IMG/VR virus record: IMGVR_UViG_3300049855_000194
Coordinates: 1-51,109 of that record
Strand: one strand, 5' to 3'
Length of the DNA stretch: 51,109 bases
Source of the DNA: a virus
Every line of letters starts with the position of its first letter. The stretch's first letter is position 1. Of this stretch, positions 4,292 to 39,501 are shown one piece after another. A program made the translations under genes and the position numbers. A model generated the notes under the pieces. The model worked only from the letters and a program-made list of their open reading frames with translations. It searched no databases and was not told the DNA's origin.

Positions 4292-4524
4292 GATTCTTCC
4301 TCGCTGTTAAGCCTGCGTACTCTATCTGCAATTTGGGCATCGTAGTTTACTACAAATTCTCTGATAGCTCCCATTCTAGAATACCAACAACCGGAGCCAT
4401 CCGTGTATCGGATACTTTCATTACCATTTTGAACTGTAACAATGATTTGTACTGCACTTACATGCTCTGCTATCTGAGCTACATGTTGTTCTAGTAGCTT
4501 CTTAATTCGTTCGTCTAGATTCAT
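4288..4524 (-). CDS. 78-aa protein between exonuclease and polymerase
   Basis: A small protein with an amphipathic N-terminal helix and a charged C-terminus (DRVRRLNSEEES). It overlaps the exonuclease stop and the polymerase start by 4 bases each (ATGA-type junctions), so the three should be translated at matched levels. I do not recognise a family. Its location suggests a subunit that bridges exonuclease and polymerase, or a linker region that became a free protein, but that is inference. Confidence 0.6.
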   Translation of the reverse strand: MNLDERIKKLLEQHVAQIAEHVSAVQIIVTVQNGNESIRYTDGSGCWYSRMGAIREFVVNYDAQIADRVRRLNSEEES

Positions 4525-7978: not shown

Positions 7979-7990
7979 GCTAAACCTCTA

Positions 7991-8584: not shown

Positions 8585-8617
8585 ATGTTTAATCTTGTTT
8601 GTTTTAGGTTAAGACGA

Positions 8618-8653
8618 GTAAACCCCGCATGTTGTGTAGCATGCGAGGTTTAC
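8618..8653 (-). terminator. Hairpin downstream of the SSB-like gene
   Basis: Arms of 14 bases (8618-8631 and 8640-8653) with an 8-base loop. The single non-Watson-Crick position is a G-U pair in minus-strand RNA but a C-A mismatch in plus-strand RNA, so the structure belongs to the leftward transcript. The U tract after it is weak, so it may be a partial terminator or an mRNA 3'-end stabiliser that sets high SSB yield relative to the replication genes downstream. Confidence 0.65.
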
Positions 8654-8669
8654 TTTAAATATCTACAGA

Positions 8670-9521
8670 TTAGAACGGTGGTTCGTTATCTGCTTTCGGT
8701 GCTACACGATCAGCAGCTGACTTAGCTGGGCCATTATTATTCAATGGTGTCTCTGGCGGAGTGGCGGTATGCGTATCGTCGGACTCGTTAGTATTCTTAG
8801 ACATAATCTCAGCACGGCGCTCCTTCAGCATATCACAAGTAGCTTTAAGCTCATCATGTGCGATGACAGGAGTGGCCTTGGAGCTACCAATCTGAGGAGT
8901 ATAGAACTTGTCGGTATCTTTAGTTTCTAGAATACTGTAGAGTTCCCACTGGTTGTACCAGATAGGTGCTTTAACTACACCATCTTCAAAACGGATCTTA
9001 GAATTCTTCAGCTTGTTCAGCCACATCTTACCAGTACGATGACCAGTCTTAGAGAAGTTCAGCACATACAGCTGGCTGAAATCCGTAAACCCATCCATCT
9101 CATTTGCCATAGCTACAATGAAATTGTAGTACTCTGTAACCCTGGCGCGATCCTTACCATCTACTTTGATAGTTTCCCAGCGCTCAGCAACCTTGGCTAG
9201 CTCACTGGAAGGATCATTGCTACGATTAAGGATACGCTGGTCCTTAGCGGCTTTACGATTCGGATTCCATTCAATCCATTCAAGCCAGAAGATCAAAGGA
9301 ACTACGAACTTTTTGGACTCCTTTGGAATGATAACTGTCTTAGTAGATACATCAGCAAAGTCACCTGACTTAGCGGCATCTTCAGTAACTAGCGGAGAGA
9401 GCGCCTGCATCAGCCGCAAATTCGGCATTATCATGTCGCGCTGGCGCATATCCTTGAAGTCGTCATCGGCTCCGCTGTAGATAGCTGGCATGTTAGCCTT
9501 GGTTGTGATAATCTCGCTCAT
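8670..9521 (-). CDS. Single-stranded DNA-binding protein-like, with acidic DNEPPF tail
   Basis: A 283-aa protein with no classic OB signature I can name, but a disordered, Thr/Pro/Asp-rich tail from about residue 240 that ends in DNEPPF. That ending mirrors the DDDIPF tip of bacterial SSB, which recruits replication proteins. The core is rich in Trp, Tyr and Lys (e.g. LIFWLEWIEWNPN, 98-110). It has its own strong promoter (9563-9590), a hairpin leader, a good ribosome site (AGAAAGAG) and a hairpin terminator, which fits a protein needed in stoichiometric amounts. It likely coats ssDNA at the fork. A recombination mediator is the alternative. Confidence 0.7.
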   Translation of the reverse strand: MSEIITTKANMPAIYSGADDDFKDMRQRDMIMPNLRLMQALSPLVTEDAAKSGDFADVSTKTVIIPKESKKFVVPLIFWLEWIEWNPNRKAAKDQRILNRSNDPSSELAKVAERWETIKVDGKDRARVTEYYNFIVAMANEMDGFTDFSQLYVLNFSKTGHRTGKMWLNKLKNSKIRFEDGVVKAPIWYNQWELYSILETKDTDKFYTPQIGSSKATPVIAHDELKATCDMLKERRAEIMSKNTNESDDTHTATPPETPLNNNGPAKSAADRVAPKADNEPPF

Positions 9522-9562
9522 TTTGAGTCTCTTTCTAGTGCGATTTGCACTGGGTATACTTT

Positions 9563-9590
9563 AATATACCATGGGTTTATGAAAAGTCAA
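9563..9590 (-). promoter_or_regulatory. Strong sigma70-type promoter for the SSB-like gene
   Basis: On the minus strand: TTGACT (9585-9590), 16-base spacer, extended -10 TGG-TATATT (box at 9563-9568). The -10 lies in the palindrome-like GGTATATTAAAGTATACC, which is identical at the promoter for the gene at 17292. The transcript would start near 9556 and open with the hairpin AGTGC-AAATC-GCACT before the ribosome site and ATG at 9521. Confidence 0.85.
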
Positions 9591-9606
9591 GCAGTTTCTT
9601 TAGCAG

Positions 9607-10101
9607 TTAAATCTCTTGAGTTTGGACGCAAGAGTGGGTGATTAAAGCGTCGAATATATCATGGTCCCTCTGGCAATACGACTTAGGTACACCATCTTTA
9701 CGCCATACCAGCTTCGTTATTCCAGTAGCTATAATGTGCTTAGTACAGATAGGGCAAGGTTTATGTGTACAGAAAATGGCACACCCATCTACTGTTTCTT
9801 TAGCGTTCAAGATAGCATTCATCTCAGCATGGATTACAAAGTCATACTTTGTAATCTTATTGAAATCATCTGTATTCTCCCACACTTCCTTGAAATCTTT
9901 TACAGCTGAGGGGAAGCCATTATAACCTAGAGATATGATCTTCTTACTATAAGGATTGAAGACTACTGAACCTACCTTTGTTCGTGGATCTTTGGAGCGT
10001 CTAGATATTTCATCAGCTAGTTTTAAACACACGTCCACGAACTCGTATTCGCTTGTCAAAGTCGCTGTCGTGTTTGATATTAGACTTAAGGAACGCATCA
10101 T
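9607..10101 (-). CDS. dCMP deaminase
   Basis: A 164-aa zinc deaminase. The catalytic HAE is at residues 91-93 (VIHAEMNAIL) and the zinc cysteines are in KPCPIC (C116, C119). SRRSKDPRTKVGSVV (33-47) and GYNGFP (59-64) match dCMP deaminases. It makes dUMP from dCMP for dTTP synthesis; no thymidylate synthase is visible nearby. The start at 10101 has an AGAAAGAG ribosome site 1-2 bases upstream and overlaps the preceding gene by 89 bases. A later GTG in front of DVCLKLAD would also give a complete deaminase fold, so the exact start is open. Confidence 0.9.
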   Translation of the reverse strand: MMRSLSLISNTTATLTSEYEFVDVCLKLADEISRRSKDPRTKVGSVVFNPYSKKIISLGYNGFPSAVKDFKEVWENTDDFNKITKYDFVIHAEMNAILNAKETVDGCAIFCTHKPCPICTKHIIATGITKLVWRKDGVPKSYCQRDHDIFDALITHSCVQTQEI

Positions 10102-10312
10102 TCTCTTTCTGAGATTGCTCTCGTATATGTTTAGGAACAGTTAGTTCCATACATGTGTTACAACAGAAGTACTTACAGTGCCATACAGTGTTGACACTAT
10201 ATAGAACTTTAAATCCCCTACCGCATGGTGTACCGCACTTAGGTGCGCTACAGACCTCCGGCAGCTTCGATTTTTCTGAGGTATTTTTTACTGGAGTTCT
10301 TTGGGCCGGCAT
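10013..10312 (-). CDS. Cys-rich small protein, probable zinc-binding
   Basis: A 99-aa basic protein with seven cysteines in two groups: C21, C26, C30 and C46, C50, C51, C54. The pattern suggests a treble-clef or zinc-ribbon knuckle. The tail is Lys/Arg rich (DKRIRVRGRVFK), which fits nucleic-acid binding. It overlaps the endolysin end by 65 bases and the deaminase start by 89 bases. Its own ribosome site is not obvious. No family recognised. Confidence 0.6.
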   Translation of the reverse strand: MPAQRTPVKNTSEKSKLPEVCSAPKCGTPCGRGFKVLYSVNTVWHCKYFCCNTCMELTVPKHIREQSQKENDAFLKSNIKHDSDFDKRIRVRGRVFKTS

Positions 10313-10661
10313 TGTAATATTGGACGCCTTTGCGCCAATCTCCTTTAGAGTAGTTCTTATCTAGCCACAGAAGATAATCCGTAGCTATCTTTGTAGCGAA
10401 GACAAAGTCAGTTTCCATCCTATAGATACTGCTTCGTCCATTATATACTTGTTTAAATGCCGCTGGTGTAATCTGATATGGGCCGACTTCATGAGCAGCT
10501 CCACGAGATCTGTCTACATAGATGAAGTTCCCATGGGCGTCCATGTAGCTGTTTGTTTCAACCTTTAGAATTGCTTTTAAGACGCTTGGAGGAACTTGCC
10601 TTTCCTGGCTCAATGCTTGGGTTGATATGTGTAGAATGAGAATCACTAAAAATAACTTCAT
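10248..10661 (-). CDS. Secreted lytic transglycosylase (endolysin)
   Basis: A 137-aa SLT-type muramidase from the ATG at 10661. Residues 1-18 form a signal peptide (MKLFLVILILHISTQALS). The fold markers follow: catalytic Glu in ILKVETNS (E35), GPYQITPAAF, then YNAGP near the end, all typical of Slt/LT domains. It should cleave peptidoglycan after export. A start 8 codons earlier (10685) is possible but puts charges before the signal peptide. It follows a membrane-protein gene (10558-10965) and a holin candidate (10868-11029), forming a lysis cluster inside the replication operon. A virion-assembly or entry role is less likely. Confidence 0.85.
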   Translation of the reverse strand: MKLFLVILILHISTQALSQERQVPPSVLKAILKVETNSYMDAHGNFIYVDRSRGAAHEVGPYQITPAAFKQVYNGRSSIYRMETDFVFATKIATDYLLWLDKNYSKGDWRKGVQYYNAGPKNSSKKYLRKIEAAGGL

Positions 10662-10965
10662 AAGACTTTCCCGGTATATCCGCATTAAATTGAACGGCTA
10701 TTACATAGTCAGTTAGGCGTCCGATTAGTTTCTTATCTACAGCTGTACCATCTTCTAGCCAGTAATAACCGTCGCGTTTGTTGTCATAGAATATATCCCT
10801 CTGCCTACCATTTATTACAGCAGAGAGGGTTGCGCTACCATCTTTAAGTAAGATGCAGTTACCAAGTCTAATCTTTTCCTCGGTGTTGAAGCGCATATAT
10901 AAGCGCGAGACAGCTACCGCAGCAGCAAAGCCAAGCAAGAATCCGCTCAATAGGTGAAAGATCAT
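10558..10965 (-). CDS. Membrane-anchored protein of the lysis cluster
   Basis: A 135-aa protein with one N-terminal transmembrane segment (about 4-22, LLSGFLLGFAAAVAVSRLY) and a ~110-residue soluble part with a basic, Ser-rich end (SSSKRLKSNSKG). It overlaps the holin candidate by 98 bases and the endolysin by 104 bases, both in other frames, as lysis genes often do. By position it could be an inner-membrane spanin or a holin regulator, but I see no coiled coil and no partner lipoprotein next to it. Function unproven. Confidence 0.6.
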   Translation of the reverse strand: MIFHLLSGFLLGFAAAVAVSRLYMRFNTEEKIRLGNCILLKDGSATLSAVINGRQRDIFYDNKRDGYYWLEDGTAVDKKLIGRLTDYVIAVQFNADIPGKSYEVIFSDSHSTHINPSIEPGKASSSKRLKSNSKG

Positions 10966-11029
10966 TGCTGGTTATTCCTGAAAATCCAACAGCAGTTAGG
11001 ATATATAGTAATAGGATAGGCCATGTCAT
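10868..11029 (-). CDS. Candidate holin, 53 aa, two transmembrane segments
   Basis: A short gene: ATG at 11029, TAG at 10868-10870. The product has a first membrane segment at about residues 3-17 (WPILLLYILTAVGFS), a short polar turn SNDLSPIER, a second segment at 30-46 (ILAWLCCCGSCLALIYA), and a charged end HRGKD. This is the class II holin layout. Its ATG overlaps the TGA of the 181-aa gene upstream (ATGA), and GAAAGG lies 7 bases upstream. The next two genes are a membrane protein and the endolysin, which supports a role in timed membrane permeabilisation. Confidence 0.7.
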   Translation of the reverse strand: MTWPILLLYILTAVGFSGITSNDLSPIERILAWLCCCGSCLALIYALQHRGKD

Positions 11030-11571
11030 TTCTTAACCTTTCTCATGGTAAGTGTAGGCTTATCAAACATTCCAATCGTTGCAGGAATCCGCAACTTAGG
11101 ATCGGCAGATTCCTTAGAGTAGCCTTGCTCGGTTACAAGCCCATTAATGAAGCTAGTGAGAGCATTTGCATTAAAGTCCTCGGATACAAGTTCGTTACCG
11201 ATAGGATGTTTCTTAAGCCATTCTACTACAAGAGGCTTGTTCTCCTTAGATACAGACACGTATGTCTTACTACCTGGAGTAAACTTATATCCACCAGCGG
11301 AGATGCTGTCCATATCACTAGCTAGCATTTCGTTGCTGACTTTCTCTGCAATCTGCGGCATGTGAGTATTAGCTGCCGTAGTGACAGACTTACATGCATC
11401 AAGCAAGCTATCTAAGATAAGATAGCATTTAAGTTTAGTCATCAGGTCTGCACGTGTGCAGCCGAAGGCTACTGGCTCTAGAACCTGTAGCAAATCATCT
11501 TTAGCTTTTTCAAACTGCTGAACCACGATGTTCAGATGGTCGAGCAGCGCTGTTTCGTTAGGAGCGGTCAT
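11026..11571 (-). CDS. Hypothetical protein, 181 aa
   Basis: A mostly helical protein (heptad-like LLDHLNIVVQQFEKAKDDLLQVL at the start) with a basic C-terminus (TLTMRKVKK). No motif I can name. It is coupled at both ends: a 4-base overlap with the 100-aa gene upstream and ATGA overlap with the holin candidate downstream. The location between the SNF2 helicase and the lysis and nucleotide genes suggests an early DNA-metabolism role. Confidence 0.65.
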   Translation of the reverse strand: MTAPNETALLDHLNIVVQQFEKAKDDLLQVLEPVAFGCTRADLMTKLKCYLILDSLLDACKSVTTAANTHMPQIAEKVSNEMLASDMDSISAGGYKFTPGSKTYVSVSKENKPLVVEWLKKHPIGNELVSEDFNANALTSFINGLVTEQGYSKESADPKLRIPATIGMFDKPTLTMRKVKK

Positions 11572-11870
11572 AATTTATCCGTATATGGGATGTAGGCTTT
11601 GAGTTCTGGCGAATATGCCAGGATATTGTAGTACTTTCGATCTGGCTGCGTGAGCCAGATCATTCCTGCGATAGCAGTAAGATAGCTAGGCCCATTAAGA
11701 ACGATCATATCTTCTTCTTGGTTAGCTCGATCTAGAATTTCTTCTAGCTTATCTCTGATCTCTCCAAGCCCTTCCTTGTTAGCTAGATCAGACGGCCCGA
11801 ATATGAATACAGGGTTCTTAATGTTTTCGAATGTATGCTTGGAGTTACGATAGAGGATGTAAGTAATCAT
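11568..11870 (-). CDS. Hypothetical protein, 100 aa
   Basis: Alternating hydrophobic strands and helices (NPVFIFGPSDL; DMIVLNGPSYLTAIAGMIWL; YYNILAYSPELKAYIPY) suggest a small alpha/beta, possibly Rossmann-like fold. No catalytic motif seen. It overlaps the SNF2 helicase stop and the next gene by 4 bases each, so it is co-translated with the helicase and may assist it. Confidence 0.65.
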   Translation of the reverse strand: MITYILYRNSKHTFENIKNPVFIFGPSDLANKEGLGEIRDKLEEILDRANQEEDMIVLNGPSYLTAIAGMIWLTQPDRKYYNILAYSPELKAYIPYTDKL

Positions 11871-13690
11871 GCACTTGCTTTCAAAAGGATATTCTTAATT
11901 GCGGCTACGTTCTTAACCATATCAGATAGCTCGCGCTTATCTCGCAACACATCTACAATATATTCCTCAATAGAATCAGCATAGATGTAATCGCGATACA
12001 GAACTTTATTAGTCTGACCAATACGATGGCAGCGATCTTCTGACTGCGCACGCGTGCCATATGAGAAGTCATTACTATAGTAGAATACAGTATGGCATGG
12101 GCATGTTTTTGTACCTAGCAGAGTAAGGCCAACGCCTCCGCTCTTGACATTACCGATGAATACTTTAACAGAATCATCAGTGTTAAATCCATCAACAGCA
12201 GCTTGCTTCTTAACTGCATCAACAGACCCGTCATATATGACTGCATTCACACCACGTTCACGAAGTTGCTTTAGAATCAGTTGGTTGTCTTGCTTGAAGC
12301 GGGACCAGATGATTAGCTTCGTACCATCTGCAACAACATCTTCGACATCATCGAGCATGTTGTTCAGTTTGGCGTCCCCACCTGGAATGGTAGTTATCTT
12401 TGTCTTGCGTACGGGTTCGCTGTCTGAATCCAATTCAATATCTTCCATAGCTACACCTTCGTAGCCAGATAGGAAGCCACAGCATAACTGAGACAGCTTT
12501 AGCATTTGTACAATGATGAACTCAGTCGTACTCTCCGTACCATCTTCAAGCATGACGTAGAACTCTTGAGCCATCTTCTTATACACTTGGCGTAGCGTAT
12601 CTGGCATCTCAATTGCACGAATCTCAAAGATTTTCTGGGGTAGGTCTAGACAACGTTCCTTCTTAACTACGAATGACATTCGTGCCATGTCTTCCTTGAG
12701 CTTATCAATCTTATCTTCTTTGAAACCTGTTACAGTTTCAAAGCCACCATTCTTCTCTACGTATGCGTACTCATTCTTAAAGCCACGATATGTACCAAAT
12801 CCTAGAGCACCTGGACGCAGGAGTTCAAACTGATGCCAGAGATCTAGGATGTTATTGCTCACTGGCGTACCAGTAAGAATACGCTTCATCGTGGACTCCT
12901 TAGCTAATGTATTGCATGCCTTACTACGCTTAGCCTCTGGATTCTTGACATAGTGTGACTCATCAAACACAACCATTGAAGGCTTGAATGCTAGAAGTTG
13001 CTGGATCATGGTGCTTACACTGTCATATGACACGATAAGAACTTTAATACGTGCTTCGCCAGCAATAACAGCAATCATCTGGTCGATGGATTTAATGTCA
13101 CCCATCAAAATATCCATGTCAACATTATGGACGCCGCAGATACCCATGTACATTTCGCGGCGCCAGTTAACAACGAGCGACTTGGGACAAACAATAACAA
13201 TACGAAGCATCTCACCAGCTTTTAATGTGCAGGCATAGTAATCTAGCTCAAGAGTGATACAGAAAGTTTTACCTGTACCCATCTCCATTAGATGGCCGAA
13301 TGATTCTGAACCTATAGCGCTTTCCGTTGCCACAAGTTGGTGCATGAAAGGCTTACGTGTATACGGTGGGTCGAATGTACTTGCCCTATCCTCAAATAAG
13401 TATTCCCACCGCTTTGAAGCGCGCTTCTCTTCGACTTGGTGTACCAGAGATTCGTACTTAATAAGCGTTGCGGCATTTGCTGTAAGCTCATACTCATCCT
13501 GCTTAAAAGTTGTAGATAGATAAGCTAAGTTAGGCTGCGTTACTGGGATATCCCAGCCTCGCCGCTTCTTATTCCACTTCTTCTCAGGGAAACCTAGGAA
13601 TAAATTGTGTAGTGTAGAGTTGTAATCTCCTACAGCTACGGCACATATTGTCTGGGCGTCCACAGCTCCGATCTTAAATTTAATTGCCAT
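11867..13690 (-). CDS. SNF2-family DNA helicase/translocase
   Basis: A 607-aa SF2 ATPase. Walker A is MEMGTGKT (about 135-142), motif II is VFDESH (241-246), motif III is LTGTPVSN, and the second RecA domain carries GNVKSGGVGLTLLG and QSEDRCHRIGQTNKV (motif VI with the arginine finger). The N-terminus (FPEKKWNKKRRGWDIPV, 34-50) resembles the HARP-type annealing element of SMARCAL1-like enzymes. It likely translocates on dsDNA, with a role in fork remodelling or recombination. It overlaps the nuclease upstream by 11 bases, a pairing common in phage replication modules. Confidence 0.92.
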   Translation of the reverse strand: MAIKFKIGAVDAQTICAVAVGDYNSTLHNLFLGFPEKKWNKKRRGWDIPVTQPNLAYLSTTFKQDEYELTANAATLIKYESLVHQVEEKRASKRWEYLFEDRASTFDPPYTRKPFMHQLVATESAIGSESFGHLMEMGTGKTFCITLELDYYACTLKAGEMLRIVIVCPKSLVVNWRREMYMGICGVHNVDMDILMGDIKSIDQMIAVIAGEARIKVLIVSYDSVSTMIQQLLAFKPSMVVFDESHYVKNPEAKRSKACNTLAKESTMKRILTGTPVSNNILDLWHQFELLRPGALGFGTYRGFKNEYAYVEKNGGFETVTGFKEDKIDKLKEDMARMSFVVKKERCLDLPQKIFEIRAIEMPDTLRQVYKKMAQEFYVMLEDGTESTTEFIIVQMLKLSQLCCGFLSGYEGVAMEDIELDSDSEPVRKTKITTIPGGDAKLNNMLDDVEDVVADGTKLIIWSRFKQDNQLILKQLRERGVNAVIYDGSVDAVKKQAAVDGFNTDDSVKVFIGNVKSGGVGLTLLGTKTCPCHTVFYYSNDFSYGTRAQSEDRCHRIGQTNKVLYRDYIYADSIEEYIVDVLRDKRELSDMVKNVAAIKNILLKASA

Positions 13691-16253: not shown

Positions 16254-16329
16254 TGGTGCTGCTTGTAAGATTCGAACTCACGACCCACGCATTACAAATG
16301 CGTTGCTCTACCAGCTGAGCTAAAGCAGC
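16254..16329 (-). tRNA. tRNA-Thr (anticodon UGU)
   Basis: Cloverleaf on the minus strand: acceptor GCTGCTT/AAGCAGC, D arm GCTC/GAGC, anticodon stem ACGCA/TGCGT with loop TTTGTAA, T arm GTGAG-TTCGAAT-CTTAC, discriminator A and encoded CCA (16254-16256). Reads ACA, a common Thr codon here. It lies 26 bases before the coiled-coil gene, so is probably cut from the same transcript. Confidence 0.95.
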
Positions 16330-16515
16330 ATATAAATGGACGTCTGTTCCGCCCTGTCATGCCTTTGTTCTCGGGTTAGCCGTGCCCATAGCCGTAACAA
16401 GTACGGACAATTAGTTTGTAATGACTCTAACTCTATGGCCGATGCGTAGCGATGAAGCAAGGTTTCTGTTGTTTGATTGACGACATATACGTTTCTCCGT
16501 ATGGGTTTAGCAAGC
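16330..16515. other. Spacer between tRNA-Thr and tRNA-Val
   Basis: 186 bases with no tRNA and no convincing gene on either strand. The open frame on the minus strand (16433-16633) runs through the tRNA-Val gene and is rejected. No strong hairpin noticed. Confidence 0.5.
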
Positions 16516-16593
16516 TGGTGGACACCGTAGGATTTGAACCTACGACCTTCTGCATGTAAAGCAGCGGCTCTAACCGGGCTGAGCTAGGCGTCC
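16516..16593 (-). tRNA. tRNA-Val (anticodon UAC)
   Basis: Acceptor GGACGCC/GGTGTCC (one G-U), D arm GCTC/GAGC, anticodon loop TTTACAT, T arm GTAGG-TTCAAAT-CCTAC, discriminator A and encoded CCA. The top pair of the anticodon stem is a G-A mismatch. Reads GUA, abundant in this genome. Confidence 0.93.
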
Positions 16594-16992
16594 GAAACGC
16601 ACGTTTATTTTGGAGCGTTAAACGTGCAAACATCGCTAGTAGTTATATGTCTACCAACATAAGCCTCCAACTTCAACAAGCACCCTTTGGTCGCTATCCA
16701 GCATGATCAATTTTCCTCAGCCTTTGTGCGCTGCAAAAGCATGTGAGGGAATCTATCTACTGGACTTGCTTAGATGACGATCGGCTAGTTAACTGAACAT
16801 ATGAGGGCAGGTAGATGCTCGCATCACAGATGAAGTTTTCGGCTTAAAAGAAACCCTAGTTTGTTTTAACGTATTAAGCTAGGAAACATTACGGAGGGTT
16901 AGCGTCCCTCAACTCTAAGCATCGTAGTTATACTAAGTATCTATACAGAGTGGCCTACCTCCATATAAAAAATGATATAAGTATGTCAGCTT
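16594..16992. other. Gene-free 400-bp spacer between tRNA genes
   Basis: No open frame worth reporting and no fifth tRNA found. It begins with a hairpin of arms GCACGTTTA and TAAACGTGC just upstream of tRNA-Val and includes a small hairpin GAGGG-TTAGCGT-CCCTC around 16894-16910. The rest could be eroded tRNA genes or processing spacers; I cannot support more. Confidence 0.5.
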
Positions 16993-17079
16993 TGGTGCGG
17001 AAGGTGGGACTCGAACCCACACGAATTTTACTTCGCTAGAACCTAAACCTAGTGCGTCTGCCAATTCCGCCACTACCGC
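16993..17079 (-). tRNA. tRNA-Leu (anticodon UAG)
   Basis: 87 bases with the long variable arm of type II tRNAs. Acceptor GCGGTAG/CTTCCGC (one mismatch), anticodon stem CTAGG/TCTAG with loop TTTAGGT, variable arm CGAAGTAAAATTCG, T arm GTGGG-TTCGAGT-CCCAC, encoded CCA. Reads CUA, very frequent in the phage genes. Confidence 0.94.
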
Positions 17080-17087
17080 GTTTAAAG

Positions 17088-17160
17088 TGGGCCAGCTAGG
17101 ATTTGAACCTAGAACCTAGAGATTATGAGTCCCTTGCTCTGACCGTTAAGCTACTGGCCC
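17088..17160 (-). tRNA. tRNA with CAU anticodon, probably tRNA-Ile2 (lysidine, reads AUA)
   Basis: Acceptor GGGCCAG/CTGGCCC is perfect, anticodon stem AGGGA/TCTCT with loop CTCATAA, T arm CTAGG-TTCAAAT-CCTAG. G1-C72 pairs, so it is not an initiator. C4-G69 and C5-G68 are the acceptor pairs that the lysidine synthase TilS uses to tell tRNA-Ile2 from elongator tRNA-Met in E. coli. AUA is heavily used in the virion genes, whereas extra elongator Met supply would have little purpose. CCA is not encoded. Only 8 bases from tRNA-Leu. Confidence 0.85.
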
Positions 17161-20938: not shown

Positions 20939-20991
20939 TTTGACCATATGACGTAGCAGGTTTGTTAAGTCTGCTACGTCATATGGTCAAA
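20939..20991. repeat. 21-bp perfect inverted repeat with 11-base loop
   Basis: Arms at 20939-20959 and 20971-20991. The stop codon of the 85-aa gene (20987-20989) lies inside one arm. No U tract follows on either strand, so it is not a classic terminator. In RNA it would be a long duplex, a good substrate for RNase III. Confidence 0.9.
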
Positions 20992-21909: not shown

Positions 21910-22240
21910 GATTCGGACTCCGGTAAGGGTTTTGAAAAAGTTGCGAAGTATAGCACTTCGTTTTGCTTTGCAATTTGTTTGTTGCTTAAGATGTTGTGGA
22001 TTTTTTCTTGGGGAAATGGGAATGCAAGGTGTTTGTTTATACGAGGCTGTAGATGTGTGAGTATTGGCGAAGTTTTAGAGGCTGGCTTGCTACTTAGGAG
22101 TCCGTAACGTGTTTACTATTTCAGACCTTAAGCCGCGGCGCGCCGTATGCTCCGATTTATCTTGTAAACCCATACATAATATATAGAGGGGTATATATTA
22201 AGGTTGTGTTAAGAAGAAGAAGAAGAAAAAAGAGAAGGTT
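21910..22240. other. 330-bp gene-free leader/intergenic region
   Basis: No supported gene. On the minus strand TTGCAA (21968-21973), 15 bases, TATACT (21947-21952) could be a promoter for the gene at 21909, but the spacer is short. Near 22180-22210 lies an AT-rich stretch with TATA-like steps, then a purine run of AAG repeats (about 22211-22240). There is also a GC-rich island CCGCGGCGCGCC near 22133. Confidence 0.4.
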
Positions 22241-22459
22241 TTACAATATAAAAATTAACATACAGAGAAGGAACCCTCCACCCCCTGAAATAGGAATGAC
22301 CCATTGCCCCTTCGCTAGAAAACACATTGTGGACGCAACTGCAAACGTCGCAAACATCATCCACATCACAAACAATTTAAACGGCGTGGACGCAATCGCA
22401 TAAACTCCTCCATTGCTATAATCGTTTGCATGGTGAGAGGAGCATACGATTGCGTCCAC
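22241..22459 (-). CDS. Possible membrane protein, 72 aa
   Basis: Frame opens with GTG at 22459 and contains two hydrophobic segments (LFVMWMMFATFAVASTMCFLA and a C-terminal GGGGFLLCMLIFIL). The ribosome site is weak, and the start sits inside a repeated TTGTGGACGC element, so the real start might be an internal ATG or the frame may be chance. Confidence 0.35.
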   Translation of the reverse strand: MDAIVCSSHHANDYSNGGVYAIASTPFKLFVMWMMFATFAVASTMCFLAKGQWVIPISGGGGFLLCMLIFIL

Positions 22460-22515
22460 AACGTTGAAATCTCGTCGTGGCGCTGGAAATTTTTCGACAA
22501 GTCTGCTAGTAAAAC

Positions 22516-22740
22516 CTACTCAAAACGTGTCCAATCTGGTGTGAAATCATGGTACTTCCTGGCGATTACCATAGCTTTATCGGACGGGAATTGTGAATTG
22601 TGTGCTTTGTAGTGCTTTCCTTTCGGGCGTCCACGATGTTTTGTCTGTAGCGTTTTACGCTCTGGCTTTTGTTTGTTGTGTAGTTTGTGAGCTTGTCGGG
22701 GTGTAAGTTTGGCGTCCGCGATGAGTCGGAATTGTGCCAT
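22516..22740 (-). CDS. Small basic protein, 74 aa
   Basis: Very basic (RQAHKLHNKQKPERKTLQTK; HRGRPKGKHYKAH) with an AT-hook-like GRPKG core. Likely a nucleic-acid binder. It starts 2 bases after the stop of a 25-codon membrane peptide, making a three-gene micro-operon with 22743 and 22823. Confidence 0.6.
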   Translation of the reverse strand: MAQFRLIADAKLTPRQAHKLHNKQKPERKTLQTKHRGRPKGKHYKAHNSQFPSDKAMVIARKYHDFTPDWTRFE

Positions 22741-22742
22741 GA

Positions 22743-22820
22743 TTAGATGTTTCCACGGATTCCCCTAGCGAAGGCTAGGATTATCAGGAGGGAGAGGATA
22801 TAGATAGCGAGGTACAGCAT
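22743..22820 (-). CDS. 25-aa single-span membrane peptide
   Basis: ATG at 22820, TAA at 22743. Product: MLYLAIYILSLLIILAFA followed by RGIRGNI, a clean membrane helix with positive tail. It starts 2 bases after the stop of the 44-codon gene and ends 2 bases before the next ATG. Confidence 0.5.
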   Translation of the reverse strand: MLYLAIYILSLLIILAFARGIRGNI

Positions 22821-22822
22821 GC

Positions 22823-22957
22823 TTAGACCATCTCCACGACGTGGACGCCATCGGCTTCAATCGCTTGGCGTATGCGTTGCCAAGTTGCGTATGAGATTGT
22901 GCCGACGCGGTGAATGTGGGTGATGTGCCGGGTGATGGCATTACGAACTATAAGCAT
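22823..22957 (-). CDS. 44-aa hypothetical protein
   Basis: ATG at 22957 with AGGAG at the ideal distance (7 bases). Helical, His- and Arg-rich (NAITRHITHIHRVG). First gene of the micro-operon that ends at 22516. No family recognised. Confidence 0.6.
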   Translation of the reverse strand: MLIVRNAITRHITHIHRVGTISYATWQRIRQAIEADGVHVVEMV

Positions 22958-22993
22958 TGTGGACTCCTGGTGTTGTGTGGTTGGCTATCAATT

Positions 22994-23024
22994 CAACGCT
23001 ATAAGTTGTTAGGTTATAGCGTTG
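22994..23024 (-). terminator. Hairpin after the 136-aa gene
   Basis: Perfect 11-base arms CAACGCTATAA (22994-23004) and TTATAGCGTTG (23014-23024), 9-base loop, 14 bases after the stop at 23039. No U run. Probably insulates the abundant 136-aa gene from the micro-operon below. Confidence 0.65.
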
Positions 23025-23038
23025 TCAGATGGTCAATC

Positions 23039-23449
23039 TTAGGCAGCAATGCTTGCAGGCTTACGCTTAGCGAGGATGTCTCGGACTTCTGCGGTCAGCT
23101 TGGTCAATTGCTTCAACTTGCTATTGGTCACTGCATCAATGCATGCAGCATCAATCGTATCATCTTCGTCAATGCAGGTTCCCGCTACCTTCGTGAGATT
23201 AGCCAGCGACTGTTCAACAGTGTTGCAGTAGTCTGCAACCTTGCGAATGCTAACGAGTTGCGACTTGTCAGCTTCCTTTAGAAACTGAGTACCGAGACGC
23301 TTGCGCGCTTGTTCTTGTTGCTTTTCGGTACGTTCACCGGGTTGCAGCACGATGGCGATTGAAGCCATAAGGACGCCAGCCTTGAGTACCTTTACAGCCT
23401 TGGCGTTGTAGTTCTTGGCGGCATTGGTCAGATTGAGAGTCTGAGTCAT
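23039..23449 (-). CDS. Unknown 136-aa protein, probably well expressed
   Basis: The ATG at 23449 has AAAGG at a good distance; a longer frame lacks one. N-terminus MTQTLNLTNAAKNYNAKAVKVLKAG, then an all-helical basic protein (RTEKQQEQARKRLGTQFLKEADK; SKLKQLTKLTAEVRDILAKRK). Codons are of the optimal kind, as in the capsid gene. First gene of the leftward arm, next to the divergence region, so probably early. No family recognised. Confidence 0.7.
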   Translation of the reverse strand: MTQTLNLTNAAKNYNAKAVKVLKAGVLMASIAIVLQPGERTEKQQEQARKRLGTQFLKEADKSQLVSIRKVADYCNTVEQSLANLTKVAGTCIDEDDTIDAACIDAVTNSKLKQLTKLTAEVRDILAKRKPASIAA

Positions 23450-23499
23450 GATAAAGCCCTTTCTTGGACTTGTGCTATTGCTTAATTGCAATGCATTTG

Positions 23500-24147
23500 C
23501 TGCCCATTTGTAGGATGGGCAGACGTTGCATAACAAGTATGCAGCTTCCCTATATGTAGCGTAGGGAGTCAAACGTTGTGGACGCATAAACATGCACCGC
23601 AACTACTCGCTCGGGGTTGTCCATATAGACCCGTTCCAGCATCGCTGGCGTTACCTTACCTCTTACTTAGATGTAAACTACTGACATCACCATTCCTACG
23701 CTGTCAAGCGTCACCTCGCTACCCATCGTAGTAGCGCATGGAATGGTGGTAGTATGACCGTTAGCCTTGCTCGCATGCTGGCATTACTGGCAGTCTGTAA
23801 GCGTCTGAGGTGGCATGCATAGCACTCTGGCATGCAGTGTGCTATATGTCTATTACTCTTGTTCCCCTTGTTAGTGAGCGTTAGCTAACCTTGTCCACCC
23901 CTATGTAGATAGGTCCTACTGCACGGCAGTGCCGATGCTGTAGGCTTGTCTGCGGGATGTCCCTAGTGCATGCGCTCTATGTCATGCGCCCTAGGTTGCT
24001 GGCTAGCCTCACTCACTCTATAGTTGTCAACATGCCATCGCTGGCATGTGTGTAGTCTCATCATCGGGGAGCTAGGTGCAAGCGCATTCCCTGCACGTTG
24101 TGGACGCATGCTCTAGTGTATCACACGCAGTGAGCTAGCTAGCGTGT
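23500..24147 (+). ncRNA. Candidate large structured RNA (dense hairpin region)
   Basis: No gene on either strand, GC clearly above flanks. I find at least twelve strong stem-loops in 650 bases: 23500-23522 (8 bp), 23525-23545 (8 bp), 23546-23568 (7 bp), 23636-23648, a three-way junction 23686-23750 (11-bp outer stem, inner hairpins ACGCT/AGCGT and CGCTAC/GTAGCG), 23821-23843, 23900-23913, 23915-23944 (12 pairs), 23962-23995, 24030-24049 (8 bp), 24076-24096 and 24123-24147. Three positions are G-U in plus-strand RNA and A-C in minus-strand RNA, none the reverse, which favours a rightward transcript. A replication origin would be an alternative or additional role. No promoter could be assigned. 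Confidence 0.55.
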
Positions 24148-24232
24148 CAACTACTTGACCGGGGGAGGGTATGCTAGCGTGTGACACAGCGCCGCGGCAA
24201 AAGGGTACGAAACTTTGTGGACGCCAACCCAA

Positions 24233-24314
24233 TACAATTATACTACGCACCCTAGCACACGTCGTACACATTGCAAACATCCCCTCTTCTCCTCCCAGCT
24301 TACAATTATACTAC
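24233..24314. repeat. 14-base direct repeat TACAATTATACTAC (24233-24246 and 24301-24314)
   Basis: Two exact copies 68 bases apart in the short AT-rich segment between the hairpin region and the rightward promoter. A partial third copy (ATACAATTA) overlaps the -10 region at 24374. Could be regulator-binding sites or part of an origin. Confidence 0.6.
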
Positions 24315-24347
24315 CTAACCTCATAAACACATCAAACAACAAACACC

Positions 24348-24375
24348 TTGACTCCCCTAAATCTAATCATAAAAT
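24348..24375 (+). promoter_or_regulatory. Promoter of the rightward arm (leaderless type)
   Basis: TTGACT (24348-24353), 16-base spacer, TAAAAT (24370-24375), then 8 bases to the GTG start at 24384. Same spacing as the other promoters in this genome. The transcript would begin at or within a base or two of the start codon. Confidence 0.78.
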
Positions 24376-24383
24376 ACAATTAC

Positions 24384-24848
24384 GTGTCAGAGTATTATCT
24401 AAACAAATCAACAAAGCTAAAGCTCGTATTGCAAGGTGACGGCACCTACGCAATAGGAGTCAGCGTCTATTCTCCACCAGGAGGTGGCGTGGATACATTC
24501 ATCTACTTGAATGAGAAAACAAAGCTAAAGCTAGTTGATCTAGGAGATGGCACATTTGCCGTTGCAACTAGCGGCAGTGGCGGAGGTGGCGGATCACCCA
24601 CTGGTTCAGCTGGCGGAGATCTTGGCGGTACATATCCAAATCCGTCCGTTAAGCACGTTACTGCGGAAGATAAAGTAATAACTTACAACGGTGACGGCAC
24701 GATTAACGTGATTACTGATTCGCTTGGCACAAAGACTTTCACCTATAACGGTAATGGAACAATTGCGTCCATTATTGGCACAGGTATTTACCAAACAAAA
24801 ACATTCGTCTATGACGGATCAAATAGGATTTCAGAAATAAATGTCTAA
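24384..24848 (+). CDS. Fibre-like virion protein with GDLGGTYPNP motif
   Basis: I place the start at the GTG at 24384, because a TTG further upstream is the -35 box of the promoter. The 154-aa product has two copies of a short unit (YLNKSTKLKLVLQGDGTYAI and YLNEKTKLKLVDLGDGTFAV, residues ~4-24 and ~40-59), a Gly/Ser linker, then GSAGGDLGGTYPNPSV, the hallmark of many phage fibre stalks, and two C-terminal repeats (TKTFTYNGNGTI, TKTFVYDGSNRI). Likely a head or tail fibre component. It overlaps the next gene by 8 bases. Confidence 0.75.
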   Translation: MSEYYLNKSTKLKLVLQGDGTYAIGVSVYSPPGGGVDTFIYLNEKTKLKLVDLGDGTFAVATSGSGGGGGSPTGSAGGDLGGTYPNPSVKHVTAEDKVITYNGDGTINVITDSLGTKTFTYNGNGTIASIIGTGIYQTKTFVYDGSNRISEINV

Positions 24849-25197
24849 AACTATCACGGCGCAGACGCCTGACTTTCCCATTCCTGCTGGGCATGCATTG
24901 CGTGTATGGCACTTTGTGGACGCAGACGGGACGGAGGAATGCAGCAGCTTCGATATGACTGCATACGATGAATGCTCCATTCTCTTCGCTCCTGCTGAAG
25001 ATGGACAGAATCTAGTCAACGTTAGCATCGTAGGCGGATTCACACCCGCTCAGAGCAATGATGTGCTAGATCAACATGGACGTCCGATTGTTGTAGGCGA
25101 TGGCATCTATAACGTAGGGTCAATGGTTCGTTATCTTCGTCCTGTCCGCGCAGTTGGATCAGGGTCTGTCTATCTCTATGCTTTCCGTAAAGCTTAA
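24841..25197 (+). CDS. Hypothetical virion protein, 118 aa
   Basis: Beta-rich protein (RVWHFVDADGTEECSSFDMTAYDECSILFAPAED; SMVRYLRPVRAVGSGSVYLYAFRK) that looks like a small beta-sandwich, as found in fibre accessories. Overlaps the fibre-like gene by 8 bases. No family recognised. Confidence 0.6.
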   Translation: MSKTITAQTPDFPIPAGHALRVWHFVDADGTEECSSFDMTAYDECSILFAPAEDGQNLVNVSIVGGFTPAQSNDVLDQHGRPIVVGDGIYNVGSMVRYLRPVRAVGSGSVYLYAFRKA

Positions 25198-28705: not shown

Positions 28706-30274
28706 ATGGCACTTCCGCTTGAAGAAGGCTACGAGAATCCTTTATATAAAAGGATGTTGGAGTTTAAGTCTAAAATACTTCAATCAGTTAAACTGCAAGG
28801 CAGCGGAAATCTAGCTAGTGGTATAGAGGCAACCCTAGCACCATCTGTAATAAAAGACCCAGACTTCAGCGTATCTGCAGACTACTCAGGGTTGCCAGCG
28901 CTACCAGCTATGGAGGGATATACATTCTTTGGGCAAGCTACTCCAGAATACAATTTCTGTAATCAAAGTTCCCCTTATGTTGTAGTCTTTGAAACCGGGC
29001 CAACAGCATCATTTACTCACACATCTGCTGGTCCTACTCCAGCAGAGATGGACGTAACATTCTCGTCTAATGGTTCCCCAGTAGGTAACTGTAATAAAGC
29101 AAACGTATTTGCACCTATAGAACCCGATCCCAAGGAAGCCGCTCCTAAATGGCTGATCCCTGTAGAAGCTACTGGAAATTGGACGCCACAGGTACTTCGT
29201 GGGCATATAGAAGTTACAGCAGACAAGCCAGAAGAGACTTTAACTTTAAAAGTTTGGAGGTTTAATCAGCAGCTTAATTGCACAGAAAACCCAACAACCT
29301 CTATATTTGTAGTAGATCTAGGTAAGATACGTGAAAGAACCTGTGACCCAAATGCTTATATATACAAGCTTATAAGATTCGACGGTACCTATGCCACTGT
29401 ATCTCCAGACACAAATACAAAGATACTGTATGCTAGCCTAACCTCTGAGCAATACGCCAACACAGGAGATGGTATAGTAGCCTGCTTCGGTGGGGGCTCG
29501 AAAACAACTTTTAAAGCTGACACAGGCACTAAAACGCAAAAATTAGATGAGCTATATCTAGGTATAGTAATACGCTATACCGACGATACGGGTTTAAGAA
29601 CTGTTAGTGGTATATTTAATGAGGATATGTCACTCGAAGAGAATTACCAGGAATACTGTAGAGCGGCGCTACCTTCGATATCTGTGCCATGCACTAAAGC
29701 ATACTTAGACCCTTACACCTCTACAATAGATTATACAGCAGGAGGCAGTGAATCTGACGCAGTAGGGATATGCGTAACATCACCACTTACCTTACCTCAA
29801 AGGGTAACTACAGCTTCTTTATGGACCAGTTACGCCTGGACAGTGAATAAGTATAGCCAATACCTCTGTCAGATACAACACGAATTCTCCGAAACATTTG
29901 AGATTTCTGAGGGCGGGGTTGATGCCGAAGTACGAGTGTATAGGAATTGCGGGTTTGATGCACAGGCAGGCATAAATGTAGAAATCACTACAAATGGAAG
30001 CTTTGTCGTTCCTACTCCTACTGCGGCTTACCCTGGATGCGGCTACAATCCATACACCACACCATGTTTTGTAGGCTGCAACTTCGGTACTATACTATTA
30101 GATGAGATTGGAAGCAAGTCACTAATAGGAAGTATACAATTTGAAGCGTCCGGTACGGAGCTACTGGTGTATGCTACAGTTAGAAGAATAGGAGATGTTG
30201 TATACTTTACAGGTATACATAAGAGAGCAACAGGAGTAGTCAATGTGGAATGCGAACTCAGAGCAGTGCCCTAA
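28706..30274 (+). CDS. Cys-rich structural protein, 522 aa
   Basis: Unrecognised. Beta-rich, with many Cys (e.g. YPGCGYNPYTTPCFVGCNFG near residue 445) and Thr/Pro/Gly segments, no signal peptide. The start is a helical tip (LYKRMLEFKSKILQSVKLQG). Last gene of the first rightward block; it converges on a minus-strand gene with a 4-base overlap and is followed by a terminator inside that gene. Likely a virion decoration or fibre-tip protein. Confidence 0.6.
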   Translation: MALPLEEGYENPLYKRMLEFKSKILQSVKLQGSGNLASGIEATLAPSVIKDPDFSVSADYSGLPALPAMEGYTFFGQATPEYNFCNQSSPYVVVFETGPTASFTHTSAGPTPAEMDVTFSSNGSPVGNCNKANVFAPIEPDPKEAAPKWLIPVEATGNWTPQVLRGHIEVTADKPEETLTLKVWRFNQQLNCTENPTTSIFVVDLGKIRERTCDPNAYIYKLIRFDGTYATVSPDTNTKILYASLTSEQYANTGDGIVACFGGGSKTTFKADTGTKTQKLDELYLGIVIRYTDDTGLRTVSGIFNEDMSLEENYQEYCRAALPSISVPCTKAYLDPYTSTIDYTAGGSESDAVGICVTSPLTLPQRVTTASLWTSYAWTVNKYSQYLCQIQHEFSETFEISEGGVDAEVRVYRNCGFDAQAGINVEITTNGSFVVPTPTAAYPGCGYNPYTTPCFVGCNFGTILLDEIGSKSLIGSIQFEASGTELLVYATVRRIGDVVYFTGIHKRATGVVNVECELRAVP

Positions 30275-31455
30275 TTTATCCACATACTCTGTTCTCGCAT
30301 ATCTATACAAGGGAAGCCAAGCAGGTTCGTTGTTTTCATACAATGAACCTGCTTGTGTTTTATTATCTTAGCTGGCTTGAAAGGCTTATGCCCCTTTATG
30401 GACGCACTATTAGCAGAGTGAATTTTCGACAAGTACTTAGCATTATTTTTGGAGCTAGGATTCTCGGACGCCTCAACATACCTTTTCGTAGGCGTAGGAG
30501 CTACATAGACATCCTCTATAATCTTCCCATATAACTGTGCAAGCACTCTCTTAAGCCTAACCGAAACTAATCCATATTCCCCAGAAGCAGAGTATTCCTC
30601 CACCTTAGCTACAATATCCCTATCATTTATATTGTAAGTCCACTTATACTTAGCTACCTCTTGTGAGAGATTAGCGTCAAATAAAGCAGATATACAATAC
30701 TGCCCATCGTAGTTGCCTAGAGTAATTACATCTGACAGTTCTACGGAGTCGACCTCTGATTCGAAGTAAATACGAATTGCCGCAAACTCGGACTCGCCAT
30801 CGTCTACGAGCTTAACGTAATTCCCCATGGCCTTATTGAAGCAACCATCGGAATGCGTTAGATCTAGTAGATCACTTAGAGCTACCTTAGCAAATACTGG
30901 CATTTCATTAGCAGCTATAATCTTATTCATAACTGGCCGGCCCGCCGTACCATCCGGCTTAATATAAGTTATACCATGCCTACCTAATCCAGCACGTAAG
31001 GGTATCAATCGCATATCCCGACGGTTTACTTTAACAGGTGTAGGTACTCCTGCTACTATAACAGACAAAGTAACTACATCCGATCCATTGCCTTTTATAT
31101 AGGTGTGCCTAGCTAAGCTGAGCAGCATAGATTGCTCAGCTTTTAGCTTACCGTATTTCACTATATGGGCATAACTCTCCGGCATTCTAGAAGCAAGCAA
31201 GTTGTCCACTGTGAAATCAGCATTGTCTTCTTTACGCCCGCCAAGCTTATCGAAATGATTAGCTACTAACGAAAGGAGCGTAATTCCACGGCTAGATACA
31301 AACATGCCTGAGTTATAAGTCCAACGCATCGACTTAACCAGAGCATATAATTCAATATCTAAAAGCGCAATAGCAGCTTCGCCAGTATACCTTGGTATAC
31401 GTAGCATAAAGTGCGTTTCACCTAAGATGTACTCTGTCTTCAGTTTAGCTGGCAT
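30271..31455 (-). CDS. Unknown 394-aa protein with repeated HNH-associated-like beta units
   Basis: Two segments, LYALVKSMRWTYNSGMFVSS-RGITLLSLV (about 32-60) and VAKYKWTYNINDRDIVAK with VSVRLKRVL (about 266-300), follow the 'D-x-x-x-x-KY-x-W-x-x-x-x-x-Y-x-x-R....iyLhrlI' layout of the N-terminal domain of phage HNH endonucleases. No HNH catalytic residues are visible. It stands alone on the minus strand in the virion arm with its own promoter and a leaderless start. Could be a decayed homing endonuclease or a DNA-binding regulator. The C-terminal ~25 residues are encoded across the terminator of the opposing operon. Confidence 0.55.
   Translation of the reverse strand: MPAKLKTEYILGETHFMLRIPRYTGEAAIALLDIELYALVKSMRWTYNSGMFVSSRGITLLSLVANHFDKLGGRKEDNADFTVDNLLASRMPESYAHIVKYGKLKAEQSMLLSLARHTYIKGNGSDVVTLSVIVAGVPTPVKVNRRDMRLIPLRAGLGRHGITYIKPDGTAGRPVMNKIIAANEMPVFAKVALSDLLDLTHSDGCFNKAMGNYVKLVDDGESEFAAIRIYFESEVDSVELSDVITLGNYDGQYCISALFDANLSQEVAKYKWTYNINDRDIVAKVEEYSASGEYGLVSVRLKRVLAQLYGKIIEDVYVAPTPTKRYVEASENPSSKNNAKYLSKIHSANSASIKGHKPFKPAKIIKHKQVHCMKTTNLLGFPCIDMREQSMWIN
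30318..30355 (+). terminator. Terminator of the first rightward block, inside an opposing gene
   Basis: Perfect 11-bp arms CAAGCAGGTTC (30318-30328) and GAACCTGCTTG (30345-30355) followed by TGTTTTATTATC. It lies 44 bases after the stop of the 522-aa gene, within the 3' end of the minus-strand gene. Confidence 0.72.
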
Positions 31456-31461
31456 ACTTTC

Positions 31462-31489
31462 ATTATACCAGACTAATCAAAAAAGTCAA
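31462..31489 (-). promoter_or_regulatory. Promoter of the 394-aa gene (leaderless)
   Basis: Minus strand TTGACT (31484-31489), 16-base spacer, TGG-TATAAT (box 31462-31467), then only 6 bases (GAAAGT) to the ATG at 31455. Sequence around the -10 (GGTATAATGAAAGTATGCC) is a variant of the shared palindrome, now containing the start codon. The -35 box includes the stop codon of the gene upstream. Confidence 0.87.
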
Positions 31490-31845
31490 GTGGAATTCTT
31501 AACACACAATGGATGTGCATAGAGTTTACCGTTTGAAGGTAGGTAGCTTAGCTTATCTTTACGCTCCCAGATCACATCTACGCAACCAAACATTATCCAA
31601 CCTATAAACTTCCATAGGTAGATACGCGGTGTAGAGTAATTGAAGATAGCTTTAGCAACTTCACCAGACATATTCATAGTGTAGACTTGCTGCTTACTAT
31701 CTTCAAAGCACCATGAATACTTTTGTAGGTGTACAACAGCCCACGTAGGAACTTTAACTACGTGTTCACCTGTCTTCTTACTGTAGATAGTGAGCTTGGT
31801 TTCGTCAGCGTCTACAATTTCGTAAGTGTTGTTTACTTTCTGCAT
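31486..31845 (-). CDS. Unknown 119-aa protein, similar layout to the HNH-associated domain
   Basis: I choose the second ATG (31845), 9 bases after the -10 box; the first (31851) is only 3 bases away and would lie before any normal transcription start. VVHLQKYSWCFEDSKQQVYTMN and RIYLWKFIGWIMFG give the same 'KYxW...Y...iyLxrfi' layout as the 394-aa protein, again with no nuclease residues. Lone minus-strand gene beside the terminase genes. Perhaps a shared type of DNA-binding protein. Confidence 0.5.
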   Translation of the reverse strand: MQKVNNTYEIVDADETKLTIYSKKTGEHVVKVPTWAVVHLQKYSWCFEDSKQQVYTMNMSGEVAKAIFNYSTPRIYLWKFIGWIMFGCVDVIWERKDKLSYLPSNGKLYAHPLCVKNST

Positions 31846-31854
31846 GGTCATTTC

Positions 31855-37833: not shown

Positions 37834-38307
37834 ATGAGTAACGTTCATCGTACAGGTCCTGTGGACATCATCACGGTTGCGGTTCCGCTTACCAGTAATG
37901 TTCCTACAAATTCAATCGCTATGGGTACTCCGGTAGCGCTAGTCGCGGGCAGCCCAATTCCTGCGGTAGCTTTCACATGGACAACCGATCTAGCTACTAC
38001 GCAAACTAACTTTGCCGCTGCCTTCTTTGGTATCAGTGAAAGCCGCTCGATTGCTGGTAGCACAGATGTACGCAACAATCAAGTAGCTATCAATATGGAT
38101 GGCACTTACGAGTTCGACGTAACCACTGGCACTGACTTTGCTGTCGGACAGTTTATCGGTTGCTCCAAAGGTGTAGGCAATAACCTCATCGATACCGTTG
38201 AAGTTGTACCTACAAAAGCACGCGCCATCGCAGTAGTGGTAGAAGATACCGCTGCCGGTGCTCTCAAAGTCCGCGCCCGCCTAGTCAACACCCTCTTCAA
38301 GCGCTAA
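37834..38307 (+). CDS. Head decoration protein
   Basis: A 157-aa beta-rich protein, rich in Ala, Val and Thr, right before the major capsid gene, the usual place of gpD/DUF2190-like decoration proteins. Optimal codons and a strong ribosome site (AAAGGA) point to high expression. Probably trimers on the capsid surface. Confidence 0.75.
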   Translation: MSNVHRTGPVDIITVAVPLTSNVPTNSIAMGTPVALVAGSPIPAVAFTWTTDLATTQTNFAAAFFGISESRSIAGSTDVRNNQVAINMDGTYEFDVTTGTDFAVGQFIGCSKGVGNNLIDTVEVVPTKARAIAVVVEDTAAGALKVRARLVNTLFKR

Positions 38308-38334
38308 TAGCGTTATAACATAAAGGAACTATAG

Positions 38335-39501
38335 ATGGAAAAGATCAAGCTAATTACTGCGTTTGAGTCTGTAAAGACTACAGCAGATATGCTGGCTGCC
38401 GAAGCTAAGGTAGTAGCTCTCATCAAGGATAAGAAGATCCTTCCGGATCAGATCTCTATCCGCGATGTGTTTGAATCCTGCTTCGGTAGCAAAGCTATCG
38501 CTGGTCTAATGGAAGGCACCGACTCCAGTCGCTTCCTAGCTCGTGAAGCTGTTGCACCTGTAAATCTATCAGCCTTCACCAACATCACTGGTAACCTGCT
38601 ATTTGAAGCCGGTGTAGAAGCCTACAAGGCTGCCATGCCCGTAGGTGATAGCTTAGTTACAGCGGAAACAAGCCGCCGTGATGGGGGGCGCGACATCGGC
38701 CTAGCTCTAATCGATGATGATGCTATGATTGTAGAAGAGGGTGAAGAGTATCCAGATGCTCGTTACGGTGAAGATTATGTCGACATTCCGACTTCAAAGA
38801 AGCGCGGTTTGAAGATTGGTCTAACACGCGAAGTTATCTTCTTTGATGAAACTGCACAGGTTCTAACTCGTGCGCGTGAAATCAGCGAACGTCTAGGCAC
38901 CAATAAGGAGAAGCGCATTCTTCGTATGGTTCTAGGTGTAGATAACAACTATAAGCGCAATGGTGTTGCTCTCAATACCTACACTGGTGCAGGCAACCGT
39001 ATCAATCTCAAGGGCACCACAGCTTTGGTCGATTGGACCTCGCTAGATGCTGCTGAGCAGATGTTTGCAGATATGAAGGATGACCGCGTTAATCCAGAGC
39101 CAGTCGATGTGCAGCCTAACACAATCCTTGTACCCAAGGAACTAAGCTGGACAGCTCGTCGTATCTTCACTGCTACAGAGTTGCGTACTGGTACGAATGG
39201 TGGTAACACACAGACGTATTCGCCGAACATGCTAACTCAGACAGCCACAGTTACCACACCGTGGTTCAAGAAGATTCTAACCGATGCTGGCGTCGCTGCT
39301 AACGTTGCTAGTGCTCGTTGGTATTATGGGGACTTCAAGCGTGCATTCCGTTATCGCACGCTCTTCCCGTTCCAGTTCATCTCTGCCAGCCACGACAAGG
39401 ATGAATTCGAGCGTGATGTTGTCGCTCAGTTCCGTGTTAGCGAACGTGGTGTACCGCGTGTAGTCGCGCCGTGGTACGTTGGTCAGTTTAACGCTGCCTA
39501 A
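38335..39501 (+). CDS. Major capsid protein (HK97-fold)
   Basis: A 388-aa protein after protease and decoration genes. First ~70 residues are helical and removable (delta-like). Main part has E-loop-like and P-domain-like sections (ISERLGTNKEKRILRMVLG helix; DWTSLDAAEQMFADMKD; TILVPKELSWTARRIF). Codon use is strongly biased to C-ending, optimal codons. A strong terminator follows. The ribosome site AAAGGAAC precedes the ATG. Confidence 0.9.
   Translation: MEKIKLITAFESVKTTADMLAAEAKVVALIKDKKILPDQISIRDVFESCFGSKAIAGLMEGTDSSRFLAREAVAPVNLSAFTNITGNLLFEAGVEAYKAAMPVGDSLVTAETSRRDGGRDIGLALIDDDAMIVEEGEEYPDARYGEDYVDIPTSKKRGLKIGLTREVIFFDETAQVLTRAREISERLGTNKEKRILRMVLGVDNNYKRNGVALNTYTGAGNRINLKGTTALVDWTSLDAAEQMFADMKDDRVNPEPVDVQPNTILVPKELSWTARRIFTATELRTGTNGGNTQTYSPNMLTQTATVTTPWFKKILTDAGVAANVASARWYYGDFKRAFRYRTLFPFQFISASHDKDEFERDVVAQFRVSERGVPRVVAPWYVGQFNAA

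Follow-up and report, generated by a model that had tools for sequence, protein, structure and literature searches.

A hairpin-rich, repeat-bearing gap between the divergent early and late genes of an uncultivated phage: a likely control region and candidate replication origin

In the phage genome IMGVR_UViG_3300049855_000194, the non-coding gap separating leftward early genes from rightward late genes probably represents a divergent early/late promoter/operator region and, most likely, the origin of replication. We favour this reading because the position and kind of the region are kept among related phages while its sequence, repeat and fold are not detectably conserved. Such a pattern is expected of a promoter/operator and origin region, not of the large RNAs GOLLD or ROOL. 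An initial annotation of this DNA had proposed a large structured RNA and mentioned a folded origin as another option. The latter idea fits best once it is widened to an early/late control region, for which we infer origin function as well as protein binding, transcription and promoters.

The window, by which we mean the whole stretch of DNA analysed (51,109 nt), represents a phage with a circular genome of 50,982 bp, since its first 127 bases are repeated at its end, and it is probably complete. Replication genes (DNA polymerase, primase-helicase, helicase, nucleotide kinase) run leftward at 2921-13690, and small early genes of the same direction continue up to 23449. Rightward structural genes (portal, capsid and tail proteins, terminase) extend from about 24384, a short leftward gene pair at 30271-31851 being the exception within this late block. 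As the initial annotation had it, the gap is free of genes and rich in GC (51.2% versus 43.9% for the genome); its left limit assumes that the ATG at 23449 is the start codon of the leftward gene. The DNA polymerase, on the minus strand at 2921-5135, is divided over the open frames 4521-5135 and 2921-4291, which a frame of 78 aa separates; it is a single frame in relatives, and the division seen here is a split gene, an insertion or a sequencing error. Four tRNA genes (Thr, Val, Leu, Met) are located on the minus strand at 16254-17160. The gene-free gap of 400 nt among them (16594-16992) shows no folding excess (z -1.2/-1.5) and, apart from tRNAs, yielded zero Rfam matches at gathering score.

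Table 1. Features of the early/late junction in the window and in its relatives (coordinates of the window unless a relative is named)
Feature	Position	Strand	Remarks
Gene-free gap, early/late junction	23450-24383		between leftward gene 23039-23449 (minus) and first late gene about 24384-24848 (plus)
Significantly folded part	23499-23750		z -5.2 plus / -3.4 minus (RNA); -5.8 / -4.5 (DNA)
Three-way junction	23686-23750		11-pair outer stem (23686-23696/23740-23750); inner stems 23698-23711, 23717-23736
Long hairpin	23905-23953		9-pair outer stem and 12-pair hairpin 23915-23944
Right-hand part	23950-24300		stems present; plus-strand folding at shuffle level
Putative late leader	24189-24383	+	GCGCCGCGGC, then G-poor C-rich unstructured stretch with AACAAACACCTTG at 24338
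Putative early leader, mirrored	21910-22141	-	GCGCCGCGGC at 22141, then G-poor C-rich stretch with AACAAACACCTTG at 22037
ACRTTGTGGACGC copy	22323-22336	+	
ACRTTGTGGACGC copy	22380-22393	+	27-nt inverted pair with 22452-22465
ACRTTGTGGACGC copy, exact	22452-22465	-	27-nt inverted pair with 22380-22393
ACRTTGTGGACGC copy	22627-22640	-	
ACRTTGTGGACGC copy, weaker	22832-22851	+	
ACRTTGTGGACGC copy, exact	23572-23585	+	inside hairpin 23575-23603
ACRTTGTGGACGC copy	24094-24107	+	
ACRTTGTGGACGC copy	24211-24224	+	
ACRTTGTGGACGC copy	24910-24923	+	within late gene
G013 hairpin-rich junction DNA	10374-11645, 12511-13427		
G012 hairpin-rich junction DNA	49584-49994 and onward		
G011 hairpin-rich junction DNA	50031-50379, 51144-51445		
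G013 junction repeat			GTGACRTTGTGACAATGT type, two orientations
G012 junction repeat			CGGTACTG type, two orientations
G011 junction repeat			AGTACGTCGAATGCGCCT type, two orientations

The left part of the gap, 23499-23750, is a real folding outlier. Here hairpins stand side by side (23500-23522, 23525-23545, 23546-23568, 23575-23603, 23611-23633, 23636-23648), the three-way junction being the last element of the series. On the plus strand none of 300 shuffles folds as low, only one of 202 genome windows does, and the segment thus ranks second of 202; it is structured to the same degree as the tRNA region of the genome. Over the longer stretch 23460-24240, the plus strand beats all 20 of 20 shuffles in fold energy (z -4.5) and the minus strand reaches z -1.9. 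Finer windows place the energy excess in 23400-23750, with a slight one at 23850-24000.

The individual structures described by the initial annotation are present, namely the three-way junction and the 12-pair hairpin, the latter with an additional 9-pair stem outside. An excess in density was not confirmed: the number of stems of at least 6 pairs is inside the shuffled range (12 observed versus 9.3 +- 2.0, a count reached by 14 of 100 shuffles). The comparison of fold energy with shuffled controls that the annotation had called for revealed an excess on both strands of 23499-23750, but none on the plus strand of 23950-24300. Windows of this genome generally fold better than their own shuffles, with a mean z of about -1 to -1.5, so that among them the whole 650-nt region comes no higher than about the 94th percentile. 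The region had been chosen by a reader seeking hairpins, so ranking within the genome is fairer than the shuffle test alone. Elsewhere, between two leftward early genes, a long perfect inverted repeat at 20940-20991 (TTGACCATATGACGTAGCAG ... CTGCTACGTCATATGGTCAA) sits in the strongest DNA-hairpin window of the genome.

Four relatives (G011, G012, G013 and G016), found via the second primase fragment, are collinear with the window in both their replication and their structural genes, with identities of 41-49% for terminase, 44-49% for capsid and 42-50% for primase. Together with the window they form a group of collinear, circular metagenome phages of 51-52 kb, which has almost no recognisable relatives in the phage collection except by primase and terminase. 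Other routes added little: the first primase fragment brought only distant relatives, the primase alignment yielded little, the terminase, the 872-aa protein and the 118-aa late protein, used as queries, brought up no relatives of use, and neither a search of genome contigs for relatives nor a DNA similarity search in phages and plasmids found any.

All three relatives that are complete around the junction (G011, G012, G013) carry hairpin-rich non-coding DNA there, so that a non-coding gap between divergent early and late blocks is found in the window and its relatives alike. With strands combined, junction windows occupy hairpin ranks 1-2 of 174 in G013, 1-4 of 174 in G012 and 3 of 171 in G011, where the limits of the relatives' junctions depend on a crude choice of ORFs and one G012 window (51301) overlaps small open frames. 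In most of these windows folding is about equal on both strands. Each junction possesses a repeat of its own, and the more distant G002 and G004 display a similar layout with other repeats again. Near its early/late junction G002 contains at least 15 tandem 9-bp units AGCGCGCAG (L140:18180-18409, corresponding to G002 about 38180-38409).

The position is kept in the relatives, and the sequence differs. DNA comparison between the window and its relatives detected matches of 14-24 bases only, which is chance level. Two covariance models, R1 for the hairpin block and R2 for the three-way junction, each built from one sequence and therefore insensitive, recovered the window; all else that they matched in 475 kb was noise, with a best E of 0.65. 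The searches turned up no close relative of the window, on which a count of covarying pairs would depend. What is conserved is the position and the kind of the locus, that is, a long, hairpin-rich, repeat-bearing early/late gap; sequence, repeat and fold are not detectably so. The suggestion of a new RNA class, understood as a conserved class, consequently finds no support, as R1 and R2 detect nothing convincing in the collinear relatives.

A repeat, ACRTTGTGGACGC with its flanks, further marks the junction of the window: about nine copies, some in each orientation, are spread from 22.3 to 24.9 kb. Its core GTCCACAA was counted six times within the 2.5-kb junction, against a single occurrence in the remaining 48.6 kb. 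The copies, although strongly enriched at the junction, are scattered over 2.6 kb and not tandem. Iteron-type origins resemble this arrangement in having a short motif repeated in a non-coding control region; they differ in that the copies here are dispersed in both orientations without a tandem array, and the binding protein is only putative. We do not claim a DnaA box: the reverse complement GCGTCCACA matches TTATCCACA, which we take to be the DnaA box consensus, in the last six bases only. Pattern scans with the repeat matched unrelated contigs and these matches were judged to be due to chance.

Two G-poor, C-rich stretches in mirrored positions look like leaders of the late transcript and of an early one, and in 120-nt windows this composition is found in just these two places of the genome. 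Alignment of the two over their whole length is no better than that of shuffles (its score was reached by 64 of 500), and the leader reading therefore rests on shared words, composition and mirrored positions. Together with the turning point of the A/T skew at 24183, the mirrored leader suggests that late transcription starts downstream of the hairpins. The G-poor stretch may also be a Rho-utilisation site, an option that we considered; an unstructured leader explains it equally well. Matches resembling sigma-70 promoters are rarer in the region than in shuffles, no promoter evidence was found upstream of 23500, and a search for terminator-like sites in the region found none. The GC-skew minimum of the window, a measure confounded here by gene direction, lies at 16.7 kb, away from the junction.

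Taken as evidence for a control region, the position between the two gene blocks, the two-strand fold excess that is strongest as DNA, the enriched repeat core, the hairpin-rich junctions of relatives with their own repeats and the mirrored leader-like stretches all point the same way. The location of the GC-skew minimum, the dispersal of the repeats and the small number of sigma-70-like matches speak against a control region or origin, and the somewhat better folding of the plus strand speaks against plain palindromic DNA. This strand difference (z -4.5 versus -1.9 for the longer stretch, -5.2 versus -3.4 for the folded part) would be accounted for if rightward transcription of the region yielded a folded RNA serving as leader or at the origin, either a long 5´ UTR belonging to the late operon or a transcript that is non-coding and starts replication. 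The region does lie directly upstream of the rightward block, and the PE1-T transcript of phage c2, a proposed replication starter, offers a precedent (PMC7150918). Nevertheless, a plus-minus difference as large is found in 18 of the 202 genome windows, promoter evidence is absent upstream of 23500, and late transcription seems to start beyond the hairpins, so we consider this explanation unlikely, albeit worth keeping in mind. The initial annotation had called the RNA probably rightward on the basis of three G-U cases, an argument too weak to carry the conclusion. We do not adopt this strand call, the folded part containing 9 G-U pairs in the plus fold and 6 in the minus fold. Its pairs are mostly Watson-Crick, open to DNA and to RNA of either strand, and under DNA parameters each strand lies far below its shuffles. 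That the locus is intergenic DNA of the ordinary kind, in which a few palindromes arose by chance or resemble terminators and the hairpins have no special function, would agree with the stem count, with the percentile of the 650-nt region and with the still stronger window around the palindrome at about 20940-20991. We regard it as rather improbable: the folded part is surpassed by a single window on the plus strand, similar DNA recurs at the junctions of relatives, and the terminator-like site is missing from the region.

GOLLD and ROOL are recognised through conserved structure, and GOLLD is often situated near tRNA islands (PMC12286853). The locus shares with GOLLD its occurrence in a phage, several hundred structured nucleotides and an unknown function, and with ROOL its occurrence in a phage and about equal length. 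It differs from both in having no Rfam match: covariance models of GOLLD and ROOL gave none at gathering score, nor at E up to 5 in 22700-24900, and the identity with these RNAs that had been proposed for the hairpins fails by the very scan named as its check. It further differs from GOLLD in lacking detected conservation and from ROOL in lacking a conserved complex fold in relatives, and the tRNA genes are about 6 kb away on the other strand. In Rfam scans of the window and its relatives no large RNA appeared. A type II hammerhead ribozyme match (42.3 bits, gathering 37) was obtained at L140:19734-19800 in the distant relative G002 (IMGVR_UViG_3300031834_000009), among small early genes. A new class of large, ornate non-coding RNA, folded and abundant or forming RNA assemblies in the manner of GOLLD or ROOL, could be imagined from the degree of structure in the folded part, which equals that of the tRNA region, from the fitting gene-free length and from the recurrence of hairpin-rich gaps in relatives. 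It is very improbable, as no relative has the structure in common, the relatives fold about equally on both strands, the right-hand half is unstructured and tRNA genes are not adjacent. One may also think of a structured non-coding RNA at the junction, either an origin transcript or a member of a new ornate class, that keeps its position and function throughout the group while each phage renews the fold; we give this notion little credence.

In the reading that we favour, the gap would exert control in cis, as DNA, where the early and late genes of a dsDNA phage diverge. It would contain promoters and binding sites serving both gene blocks and, most likely, the origin of replication as well. 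The scattered ACRTTGTGGACGC repeats would be recognised by a protein of phage or host. The palindromic hairpins, whether formed in DNA or in short transcripts, would serve as binding sites, as elements for melting or priming, or as terminators. Control regions of this sort hold their position and architecture while their sequence drifts fast, leaving each relative with other hairpins and another repeat. A comparable arrangement is known from Ceduovirus (lactococcal phage c2): there a non-coding region holding the origin separates early from late genes, which diverge, the origins fall into three types that lack significant similarity to one another, and the non-coding transcript PE1-T of c2 is thought to be important for initiation (PMC7150918). 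The likeness consists in a gap between divergent blocks, in position kept while sequence varies and in a possible non-coding transcript. The region described here differs by its dispersed repeats, its larger size and its other phage group, and its origin, promoters and transcript are only putative. We use the parallel for how the region may work, claiming neither membership nor sequence relation.

Dense hairpins in a single genome are insufficient as evidence for a large RNA, because in relatives this locus is rich in hairpins on both strands without common sequence. For this group of uncultivated phages, in which sequence similarity fails, a hairpin-rich, repeat-bearing early/late gap offers a positional rule for recognising control regions and likely origins. 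If transcribed, the region could join phage c2 as a second case of a divergent origin that has a non-coding transcript.
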